64,000 nucleotides of DNA from Peptoniphilus catoniae (lineage in GTDB: Bacteria; Bacillota; Clostridia; Tissierellales; Peptoniphilaceae). The stretch is taken from NCBI RefSeq assembly GCF_901447155.2, contig NZ_LR588419.1, positions 1 to 64,000 on the forward strand, given 5' to 3'. Shown one piece after another: positions 3,297 through 56,716 of this stretch. Each line of letters begins with the position of its first letter. Position 1 is the first letter of the stretch. The notes beneath the pieces are model-generated. The model worked only from the letters and a program-made list of their open reading frames with translations. It was not told the DNA's origin and did no database searches. The position numbers and the translations under genes are program-made.

Positions 3297-3572
3297 TTAA
3301 ATGTTCTTTTCAAAAACGTCCTGATACTTTTCATCCTGTAGTTTAGCATAAGCATAGGAGCAAGTCGCTCTTACCTTCTTCTTGTCCTCCCTTGCCCAGT
3401 TAACTAAAGCATCAAGAAGTCTGCCTGCAACACCTTGACCGGTTAGGTTGTCGGAAACTATAGTGTGCTCTATATTTACATAGTCCCCCTTATCTTCGTA
3501 AACCATTTGGGCCTGAGGTGCCTCTTCAATTCTTCCTATATAAAACTTATTAGTGCCGTGTTTAATCTCCAT
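3297..3572 (-). CDS. Small GNAT-type N-acetyltransferase (YjdJ/Gtn-like)
   Basis: A 91-residue single-domain acetyltransferase. The acetyl-CoA loop is seen in SDNLTGQGVAGRLLDALVNWA and the C-terminal strand in RATCSYAYAKL, with a Cys near residue 75. This is the short YjdJ class that has only the core CoA-binding fold. Substrate unknown. AGGAGG lies at a good distance from the ATG and a terminator follows at once, so it is probably transcribed alone. Confidence 0.8.
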   Translation of the reverse strand: MEIKHGTNKFYIGRIEEAPQAQMVYEDKGDYVNIEHTIVSDNLTGQGVAGRLLDALVNWAREDKKKVRATCSYAYAKLQDEKYQDVFEKNI

Positions 3573-3685
3573 AAAAAGCCTCCTTATTCCTCAGTAAAAT
3601 CTCTTTGCCTTATAGAGTATATTGTACATTATTTTACAGGTATAAGTAAATCCCATAATATAAAATTTTTAAAGGCTCTAAAATA

Positions 3686-12540: not shown

Positions 12541-12616
12541 GCTATCGTAGCTCAGTAGGTAGAGCACTACATTGGTAATGTAGAGGTCGCGGGTTCAAAT
12601 CCCGCCGTTAGCTCCA
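12541..12616 (+). tRNA. tRNA-Thr (anticodon GGT), CCA encoded
   Basis: A full cloverleaf reads directly: acceptor GCTATCG/CGTTAGC, D stem GCTC/GAGC, anticodon stem CTACA/TGTAG around TTGGTAA (anticodon GGT), variable AGGTC, T stem GCGGG/CCCGC with loop TTCAAAT, then discriminator T and CCA. It decodes ACC and ACT. The acceptor stem has one T-T mismatch at pair 5-68, which is unusual. All other stems pair fully. Confidence 0.95.
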
Positions 12617-36419: not shown

Positions 36420-36655
36420 AAAAAATCGCCTCTAAACAGAGGCGAAAATATCCACGGTACCACTCCAATTAATCACTAGGTGATTATCTCAAAACAAGTT
36501 AACGCATGTTAAACGTGAATCGATACTCAAGGCTTCTTTTTGTCGATTCATTCTCCAAGGCTCTCTTTCATTTTCCAGGCACCTGTTGACTTTCACCTTC
36601 CACAACTCTCTATAAAGGGTCCTAAGAAAAATACTTTTCCTCTTCAAAGAATATT
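36420..36655 (-). ncRNA. T-box leader, probable arginine specifier
   Basis: On the minus strand, the T-box core (TTGGAGTGGTACCGTGG, 36468-36452) is followed by the terminator TCGCCTCT/AGAGGCGA and T7 (36445-36418). Stem I shows AGTA and GAA loop-E elements and the AGAGAG/GGTGAA segments; stem III is GAATCGA/TCGATTC (36549-36517). Reading the codon after the GAA of the specifier loop gives AGA (36566-36564), arginine. The UGGN bulge reads UGGA, which would need a tRNA discriminator U. That is not typical of tRNA-Arg, so the amino-acid call is tentative. It controls the amino-acid transporter operon by read-through when the tRNA is uncharged. Confidence 0.9.
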
Positions 36656-36661
36656 TCGATA

Positions 36662-55489: not shown

Positions 55490-55530
55490 AAAAAAAATCG
55501 GTAGCGATAAAAAACTACCGGTTTTTTTTA
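55490..55530. terminator. Bidirectional intrinsic terminator
   Basis: AAAAATCGGTAG and CTACCGGTTTTT form the stem, with a T run after it. It overlaps the tadA stop codon and separates it from ppk1. Confidence 0.88.
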
Positions 55531-55970
55531 TCCCTTAGGTCGGAAAAAAAATCAGAAATTAAATTAGAGCACTCCTTTTCCATAAGACCGAAAACACACT
55601 GGCAGGTGTGATTAAAATTATAATCCAGTAAATTTATCTTGGAGCCGCAGCAACCGAATCTTTCATTTCTTGCACCTATATAAACCTTGTTTATTCTAAA
55701 ATTTAAAATAGCACCGGCACACATGGCACAAGGCTCCAGAGTAACATACATATCACACATATCAAGCCTGTAGCTTCCCATAGCTCTTGCAGCATCCCTT
55801 AAAGCAACTATCTCCGCATGAAGAGAAGCATCTTTTTCAAACTCCTTTTTATTGAAACCTCTGCCTATTATCTCCTTGTCCTTAACAATTACACAGCCTA
55901 CAGGTATATCACCATTTTTATAGGAGATGGTTGCAAGTCTAAGGGCCTCCTTCATATAGATATCTTCCAT
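55515..55970 (-). CDS. tadA: tRNA adenosine(34) deaminase TadA
   Basis: A 151-residue zinc deaminase. The zinc and catalytic motifs are DASLHAEIVALRDA and LEPCAMCAGAIL. It converts A34 to inosine in tRNA-Arg(ACG). The start MEDIYMKEALRLA behind GGTGA is preferred to an in-frame ATG 18 bases upstream. A single gene. Confidence 0.94.
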   Translation of the reverse strand: MEDIYMKEALRLATISYKNGDIPVGCVIVKDKEIIGRGFNKKEFEKDASLHAEIVALRDAARAMGSYRLDMCDMYVTLEPCAMCAGAILNFRINKVYIGARNERFGCCGSKINLLDYNFNHTCQCVFGLMEKECSNLISDFFSDLRDKKNR

Positions 55971-56080
55971 AAAAATCACCATCTTCATACTAACATAAAA
56001 ATAAAATAAAAAATTTAAAAAATTTTTTATAAAAATGTTTTAAAAAACTTTTATAGGGTATTACTTTAATACCAAAGAAT

Positions 56081-56101
56081 TATAATAAATTTCTTTGGTG
56101 G
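56081..56101 (+). promoter_or_regulatory. Likely promoter region of the structured RNA
   Basis: TATAAT occurs at 56090-56095, inside a palindrome with arms ACCAAAGAA and TTCTTTGGT. The -35 region is AT-rich with no clear match, so the promoter is weak evidence. Transcription from it would start at about GGTGGGACC, just before the closing helix. Confidence 0.45.
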
Positions 56102-56716
56102 GACCTTGACAAATCCATCCGATATTTTGTCGTCACCAGGACGTTAATATAGATGTAAGATACCTACATTCATTTAAGTATTCCATCATCTATTTTAAAC
56201 TTATAATTTTAAAATCTCCGTAACTTAAGAGTTGGGTTCGGGTTCAGGTTTTATAACGTTAAGTTTAAAAAATATCAGAAAATGTATTAGAAAAGGTTTA
56301 GGTTTATCTCTAAGTAAGTTAGTTAAGGGTTATGTCCCTAATTAGTATGTTTGCTTATAGAAGATAAGTTTGTATTCCCGTTTAAATATTTAAGATAGGT
56401 TTATATAATATTTAAACAACTAGAAGTATTAAAATCAATTGATCTCCTTTCGATTAAAGAATGTTTCCCGACAATTAACGAAGAGCAAGTGATTGTTAGA
56501 GGAAATTCCATTAAATTTAAATAAATTATGAGATGAATCCTTTAGTTGACAATTGATTAAACAGTCAGGTCGGTAAGGTTAACCGATTAAATGATAATTT
56601 TTATGAATAGAAGGTTGATAGAGTAGTGATTGAACCAAAAGATTTTTGTCGGATGGATTTGTTTAAGATCTAAAAAGATAGTGGCATTTATTAAATAAAT
56701 ACACTATCTTTTTTTA
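56099..56716 (+). ncRNA. Large structured non-coding RNA candidate
   Basis: About 600 bases with no protein frame. ACAAATCCATCCGA at 56109-56122 pairs exactly with TCGGATGGATTTGT at 56649-56662, a 14-bp terminal helix enclosing about 525 nt. Local hairpins inside: CGTC/GACG (56131), ATGTA/TACAT, AACTTAA/TTAAGTT (56222 with 56261), AGGG/CCCT, CTTA/TAAG, GTTTAAATATT/AATATTTAAAC (56380 with 56407), TCGGT/ACCGA (56570), and possible longer pairs (TCGGG/CCCGA). A terminator follows. The size and closed architecture resemble ROOL-class RNAs. This is not confirmed by alignment. OLE RNA is less likely because no isoprenoid genes are linked. Confidence 0.75.
56671..56716 (+). terminator. Terminator of the structured RNA
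   Basis: AAAAAGATAGTG pairs with CACTATCTTTTT, with an inner ATTTATT/AATAAAT stem, followed by T7. Starts nine bases after the closing helix. Confidence 0.9.

Follow-up and report, generated by a model that had tools for sequence, protein, structure and literature searches.

ROOL members have in common an elaborate, pseudoknot-containing secondary structure and form an RNA-only octameric cage. In type I toxin-antitoxin systems, a hydrophobic, membrane-acting toxin peptide is combined with an antisense RNA antitoxin. ROOL is reported to occur in a phage or prophage setting, often near tRNAs (PMC12286853). Long-distance pairing of 5' and 3' ends is described as silencing small toxin mRNAs such as that of AapA3, in which the Shine-Dalgarno (SD) sequence is masked (PMC6733600). 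Staphylococcus RNAIII is 514 nt long and contains an ORF, translation of which is influenced by the 3' end of the RNA (PMC8383071). For the leader MgtL, an early EPDP motif causes ribosome drop-off, and dependence on EttA seems to require at least paired acidic residues (PMC11282234).

The locus analyzed here lies in a window (the whole analyzed stretch of 64,000 nt of Peptoniphilus catoniae DNA), in a gap bordered on the left by a tadA-like deaminase gene (positions 55515 to 55988, minus strand) and on the right by a gene of the copper-amine-oxidase-N type (from 56946, plus strand). A preliminary description had placed a stand-alone, purely noncoding structured RNA gene in this gap, either a divergent relative of ROOL or a new class. 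Comparative evidence at the sequence level indicates that the RNA gene is real. It would be a stand-alone gene, about 640 nt long in the window, of an RNA family that our searches found in just two families of the order to which Peptoniphilus belongs. The RNA family appears to be undescribed; its members come from Peptoniphilus-group anaerobes and share a conserved micro-ORF. The suggestion of a new class fits; the purely noncoding character does not hold (see below), whereas relatives and covariation support a structured RNA that stands alone, with a long-range helix and its own terminator.

A resemblance to ROOL is not borne out. Rfam 15 (cmscan) found nothing relevant in the gap, where no family reached its cutoff and ROOL, GOLLD, and OLE gave no match even up to an E value of 10; nor was there a relevant Rfam match in the 14 regions scanned of the 20 fetched from relatives. 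The Peptoniphilus RNA shares with ROOL, GOLLD, and OLE the closed ends and a length of several hundred nucleotides, but it differs from them in the lack of an Rfam match, in the presence of an ORF, and in an interior that is variable, C-poor, and mostly unconserved and does not look ornate. The identified nearest neighbors are chromosomal, housekeeping-type genes, unlike the phage or prophage setting of ROOL, and one scan of a viral collection returned no true copy among 21 pattern matches: none combines a frame of 11 to 18 codons with the closing helix (P1), and the 14-codon frame of L221 is the end of a longer open frame. We therefore rejected a phage origin. A divergent 6S RNA or tmRNA was likewise rejected, since neither family has a match in the gap and both RNAs are found above their cutoffs elsewhere in the genome of the window. 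The literature covered, which included few of the subscription journals, contained no account (judged by title for Peptoniphilus) of such an RNA in Peptoniphilus, Peptoniphilaceae, Tissierellales, or Anaerococcus and, on the peptide motif MIEPK, unrelated matter only. Elsewhere in the window there are a T-box leader (36435 to 36656, minus strand, 115 bits) and a tRNA (12541 to 12613).

At the center of the analysis are helix P1 and the reading frame that overlaps it. As the preliminary description had stated, ACAAATCCATCCGA (56109 to 56122) and TCGGATGGATTTGT (56649 to 56662) are exact reverse complements, 540 bases apart. They form the core of P1, whose putative 5' arm spans 56101 to 56124 and whose 3' arm spans 56647 to 56671, both on the plus strand. 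The predicted duplex extends to -30.6 kcal/mol; when the upstream sequence was dinucleotide-shuffled, none of 50 shuffles matched this value (mean, -16.8 kcal/mol). The accompanying claim that the gap holds no credible coding frame is contradicted by a 15-codon ORF, VIEPKDFCRMDLFKI, at 56626 to 56673 of the plus strand (GTG start; TAA stop at 56671 to 56673), which contains the 3' arm of P1 from codon 8 on and whose N terminus is conserved in 72 copies. One strand of P1 thus seems to carry the second half of the coding sequence for a mini-protein of 15 codons, the first residue of which is presumably fMet. An SD-like sequence, AGGTTGA, precedes the start codon at 56612 to 56618 of the same strand. 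A gap labeled noncoding can therefore conceal a micro-gene within a structural helix.

Of 101 genomes in a DNA search, three from the same genus had strong matches, as did, at a different site, two from another genus; 46 of the 101 genomes were listed at E values up to 0.01, the rest of the matches being mostly short and chance-like, with one true copy (G011). An alignment of six sequences shows conserved ends flanking a variable middle. A pattern of the 3' end, with up to three mismatches free in place, matched once each in 25 of 130 genomes of the family, and its reversed control in none. R1, a model that uses sequence alone and was built from the 3'-terminal 66 nt of 19 sequences, gave further matches in the Peptoniphilus family and in a second family; 17 of the 20 regions fetched contain a copy, and three (L149, L156, and L157) are false matches; L149 and L157 were among the minority of R1 matches outside families f1 and f4 (E values of 0.01 or less) that were fetched. 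A simplified pattern, with third codon positions free and one mismatch allowed in any place, was found in 45 of 249 genomes of the order, which we take to be Tissierellales, and in 18 of its 92 genera (reversed control, zero). In a search of the class, 11 of 391 genomes matched, nine of them in the order and two (of 372, with one mismatch) outside it, and the reversed pattern matched in three genomes. Together with L138 and L228, 40 further regions picked by eye from the R1 matches made up 42 loci, 19 of which yielded 20 more copies and 19 of which were empty; two were dropped because of poor SD energies and no clear P1 at the usual place (G105 and G153), and two long frames were set aside (G125c and G112). 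The working set thus comprises 72 copies, a lower bound, from 64 genomes; their 23 genera belong to two families of a single order. It excludes C589, one of three G147 matches. Among named records, the motif occurs in 45, of which 22 are Peptoniphilus, Anaerosphaera, or a Tissierellia assembly; we judged the other 23 to be chance matches by organism, frame, and weak pairing of the arms.

P1 differs widely in sequence among lineages, and its pairing is retained. It could be fitted in 51 of 52 copies, the sole exception lying at a contig end, and in these 51 the partner of the ORF (from about codon 8) is a site 181 to 744 nt upstream, near the promoter. Counted on predicted duplexes, each of the first 14 pairs shows at least four standard pair types. 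Among 33 representatives, the duplex with the cognate arm averages -27.1 kcal/mol, versus -13.9 kcal/mol in 1,056 pairings with foreign arms, and of 1,650 upstream shuffles, 14 are as good as the real sequence. When 32 representatives were folded at full length, P1 had a median predicted probability of 0.96. Several results were counted against the helix: just 21 of the 33 representatives pair best with their cognate arm, which the arms of one to eight other copies equal or beat in the rest; in eight of the 33, the duplex is equaled by one or more of 50 shuffles; 20 of 800 shuffles are as good as P1 in the 20 R1 copies; P1 is weak in G023 (-13.5) and G139 (-15.9); and its predicted probability is below 0.5 in two of the 32 folds (G007 and G050a). 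The position of P1 relative to the ORF is nearly fixed. By an automatic definition, its start falls at nucleotides 22 to 24 of the ORF in 41 of the 51 pattern copies, with 10 outside this range, and in the 20 R1 copies, which were picked from matches of the sequence model without using the helix, it starts at nucleotides 21 to 26 in 16 and elsewhere in four. A pattern with a free gap of 1 to 16 nt gave a 7-nt gap in 34 of 38 matches; the four with other spacing include a true copy (G125, gap of 6 nt) and a false one (G203, which is L157). Relative to the first base of the stop codon, the last paired base of P1 ranges from 4 nt downstream to 20 nt upstream, with a median of 0 (51 copies).

The ORF is conserved along with the helix. 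In each of the first 25 copies, the 3' end is a short frame with a stop just before the terminator, and over the whole set the ORF has 11 to 18 codons with a MIEPK-type N terminus and a variable remainder. The anti-SD energy has a median of -6.6 before the starts, versus -0.9 further upstream (52 copies), and is -4 or lower at 46 of 52 starts, versus 18 of 155 upstream controls. Among 66 distinct ORFs, the start is GTG in 54, ATG in 11, and TTG in one; codon 2 is Ile in 55; codon 3 is always Glu (GAA in 61 and GAG in 5), and codon 4 is always Pro (CCA in 44, CCT in 21, and CCG in one), with synonymous variation only. Codon 5 is Lys in 64 of the 66, always AAA and never AAG, so that part of the conservation may be at the RNA level. 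Codon 9 is Trp in 45 of the 66, largely because GUUGG pairs with CCAAC. Since the patterns and the collecting scripts demanded most of the MIEPK nucleotides, the conservation of the amino acids is in part imposed by selection of the copies; a pattern that ignores the SD sequence also matches all 52 copies except G048. The start codon is uncertain in 32 of 52 copies, in which another in-frame start exists upstream, and there is none in the other 20. Stop codons of all three kinds occur, and in every one of the 72 copies the stop lies at most 10 nt from the terminator stem.

The remaining parts of the RNA were delimited by comparison with these relatives. A putative promoter lies at 56036 to 56064 of the plus strand, with a -35-like TGTTTT (56036 to 56041), a 17-nt spacer, and a -10-like TATTAC (56059 to 56064), in place of which several relatives have TATAAT in the alignment; a promoter scan gave 4 promoter-like sites versus 9.0 expected. 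The TATAAT at 56081 to 56086, previously proposed as the promoter, instead sits in the loop of a predicted 5' hairpin, ACCAAAGAA...TTCTTTGGT (56071 to 56099, plus strand), at the estimated 5' end of the RNA. Transcription is estimated from the sequence to start near 56071, and like hairpins are seen in the other five sequences of the six-sequence alignment. At the other end, the candidate intrinsic terminator (56672 to 56715, plus strand) agrees with the preliminary description: a hairpin with a 12-bp stem (56672 to 56683 with 56702 to 56713) begins inside the stop codon and is followed by T's. A terminator scan did not list it, and the call rests on the stem, the T run, and the relatives; similar hairpins could be fitted in all 52 copies examined first as well as in 20 further ones, with the stem starting -9 to +1 nt from the ORF end in the former and -10 to -1 nt in the latter.

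Between these ends, the structure is modest. Both the stretch delimited in the preliminary description (z, -3.8) and the stretch from the estimated start (z, -8.3) fold more stably than each of 20 shuffles, whereas the interior domain alone (56131 to 56610, plus strand) has a z of -1.8, with three of 100 shuffles folding as well. In 51 copies, the interior ranges from 126 to 687 nt, with mean composition A 0.40, C 0.08, G 0.17, and T 0.34, and its sequence is mostly unconserved between genera. Of 51 interiors, 25 contain the loop motif TTA(A)GAGT, versus 8% of mononucleotide shuffles, a comparison that ignores relatedness. The copy in the window is a putative hairpin with an (A)AGAGUU loop, AACTT[AAGAGTT]GGGTT (56222 to 56238, plus strand), whose stem is interrupted further out by two nonstandard pairs. 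In a script-based count over 13 Peptoniphilaceae copies, chosen for long stems from the 25 with the motif, eight of nine stem pairs show at least two standard pair types, and the only two nonstandard pairs are those of the window; the stem has only 3 to 5 bp in other copies of the motif. The word GGACGTTAATATAGATGT at 56139 to 56156, or GGCGTTTATATAGATGT, follows just after the 5' arm of P1 and is similar in several Peptoniphilaceae copies.

Neighboring genes vary between lineages. Among 52 copies, an ArsC-like gene on the left (12 copies) goes with an FprA-like gene on the right (nine), and a FeoC-like gene on the left (nine) goes with a nicotinate phosphoribosyltransferase gene on the right (10); a tadA-like gene lies next to seven, and an EngB-like gene next to three, plus others; the ArsC, FeoC-like, phosphoribosyltransferase, and deaminase genes were assigned by Pfam, and those for FprA and EngB are presumed, by recognition. 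Because the neighbors are not constant, the RNA gene appears to stand alone. No conserved partner gene that would hint at a function was found in the neighborhoods of the 52 copies, which was counted as an adverse point. A same-strand nicotinate phosphoribosyltransferase gene follows L142, L143, L148, L139, L140, L147, L152, L153, L155, and L200, in both families, and this site is possibly ancestral.

Comparison of the copies shows P1, the ORF, the SD sequence, and the terminator in a near-fixed geometry. We propose, as a serious possibility that falls somewhat short of probable, that the RNA is a small structured one whose ring closure and micro-ORF translation are mutually exclusive, i.e., a translation-gated switch. 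P1 would join the 5' and 3' ends of the RNA, and its 3' strand would double as the last part of the MIEPK micro-ORF. A ribosome would load on the SD sequence and start codon, both outside P1, and read the first codons. With a standard ribosome footprint, the leading edge arrives at P1 after about three codons; because roughly 22 nt of the ORF precede P1, the edge would meet the helix during the joining of MIE-P. If the ribosome continued, P1 would be unwound and the ring opened, and if translation were slow, paused, or absent, P1 would remain shut. Because they use the same nucleotides, a translating ribosome and P1 would exclude each other; we infer this exclusion, as well as transcription and translation. 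A translated, open form and an untranslated, closed form with different fates would allow the RNA to report on translation, and what the two forms do is a guess on our part. In some copies, P1 ends on its outer side as much as 20 nt ahead of the stop codon, which was counted against a translation-gated reading. Nucleotides that both pair and encode, in a nearly fixed geometry, would permit a clean test of translation as the input of a free-standing switch.

The conserved MIEPK probably acts in the ribosome at an early step and not as a free peptide; when the ribosome meets P1, the peptide made so far would be just its conserved portion, which favors a nascent-chain role. A more specific version, possible but on the doubtful side, is a ribosome-operated lock, in which the nascent MIEPK peptide and a helix about 22 nt into the ORF would together hold or release an early ribosome, whose passage would open the ring. 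If true, the lock would represent a class of RNA switch with translation itself as input, free of any downstream gene. The micro-ORF resembles an MgtL-type leader in its N-terminal acidic residue and proline and in being a short ORF tied to RNA refolding, but it has one acidic residue, and no downstream gene is controlled in general. Since at least paired acidic residues seem to be needed in the EttA/MgtL case (PMC11282234), the lone E-P(-K) would be at best a weak pause that may need P1, and MgtL-type ribosome destabilization as the whole story is weakened.

Rather unlikely, in our estimation, is that the peptide is the product, the locus being a tightly controlled gene for a micro-protein or signal peptide whose translation is held low by P1 and the long 5' region, in the manner of a type I toxin, until processing or some trigger. 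The MIEPK start is retained through synonymous changes, with SD sequence and stop, and the hok and aapA mRNAs are likewise short transcripts with a tiny ORF and a 5' end paired to the 3' region, as predicted here; such pairing is known to silence toxin mRNAs. However, conservation concerns mainly the first five residues (apart from the Trp codon), and the rest varies with P1. By inspection, the peptides (11 to 18 residues, with a charged start) are short and polar, without a membrane segment, and thus not hydrophobic-looking. P1 begins at about nucleotide 22 and covers the end of the ORF, leaving out the SD sequence and start, unlike the masked SD sequence reported for AapA3 (PMC6733600); the SD region has mean unpaired probabilities of 0.22 to 0.78 in 32 folds.

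Unlikely, too, is a trans-acting, dual-function RNA of the RNAIII sort, whose interior would pair with mRNAs or bind a protein and whose micro-ORF would be a second output. By description, RNAIII and other dual-function RNAs are similar in having a few hundred nucleotides, structure, and a tiny ORF, and the sequence evidence here points to a tiny ORF within a structured RNA; the C-poor interior, the conserved (A)AGAGUU-loop hairpin, the 5' hairpin, and the terminator would suit such a role, and in RNAIII the 3' end affects translation of the ORF (PMC8383071). The Peptoniphilus ORF, in contrast, lies at the 3' end, within the closing helix, and the interior that would have to act in trans is largely unconserved between genera and of widely different length. 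Very improbable is a purely noncoding RNA with a conserved motif that happens to read as an ORF: the invariable AAA wherever codon 5 is Lys, the pairing that explains GUUGG, and a copy in which Trp is changed to Gly with the helix kept (G165) speak for it, but the variation at ORF nucleotides 9 and 12 is synonymous, the start may be GTG, ATG, or TTG, an SD match is usual, and all three kinds of stop codon keep their place by the terminator stem. A cis-acting leader or attenuator of the downstream gene is scarcely credible: a same-strand nicotinate phosphoribosyltransferase gene lies downstream in 10 of 52 copies, from both families, and the stop codon touches the terminator, so that a ribosome there could hinder it, but the next gene is often on the opposite strand (including nine of cluster 2 and five of cluster 5), and its identity changes.

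Some genera have two or three copies per genome (L197, at about 3492 and 4677; L196; L228; and L245 to L247), and some of these copies are 1 to 2 kb apart. Examples are G050, in which two copies flank a gene that presumably encodes a NUDIX protein, by recognition, and G125; G033, G146, and G058 each have a second, different copy. One of the loci fetched for the Peptoniphilus RNA, L158, also contains a fluoride riboswitch match (3516 to 3582, plus strand).
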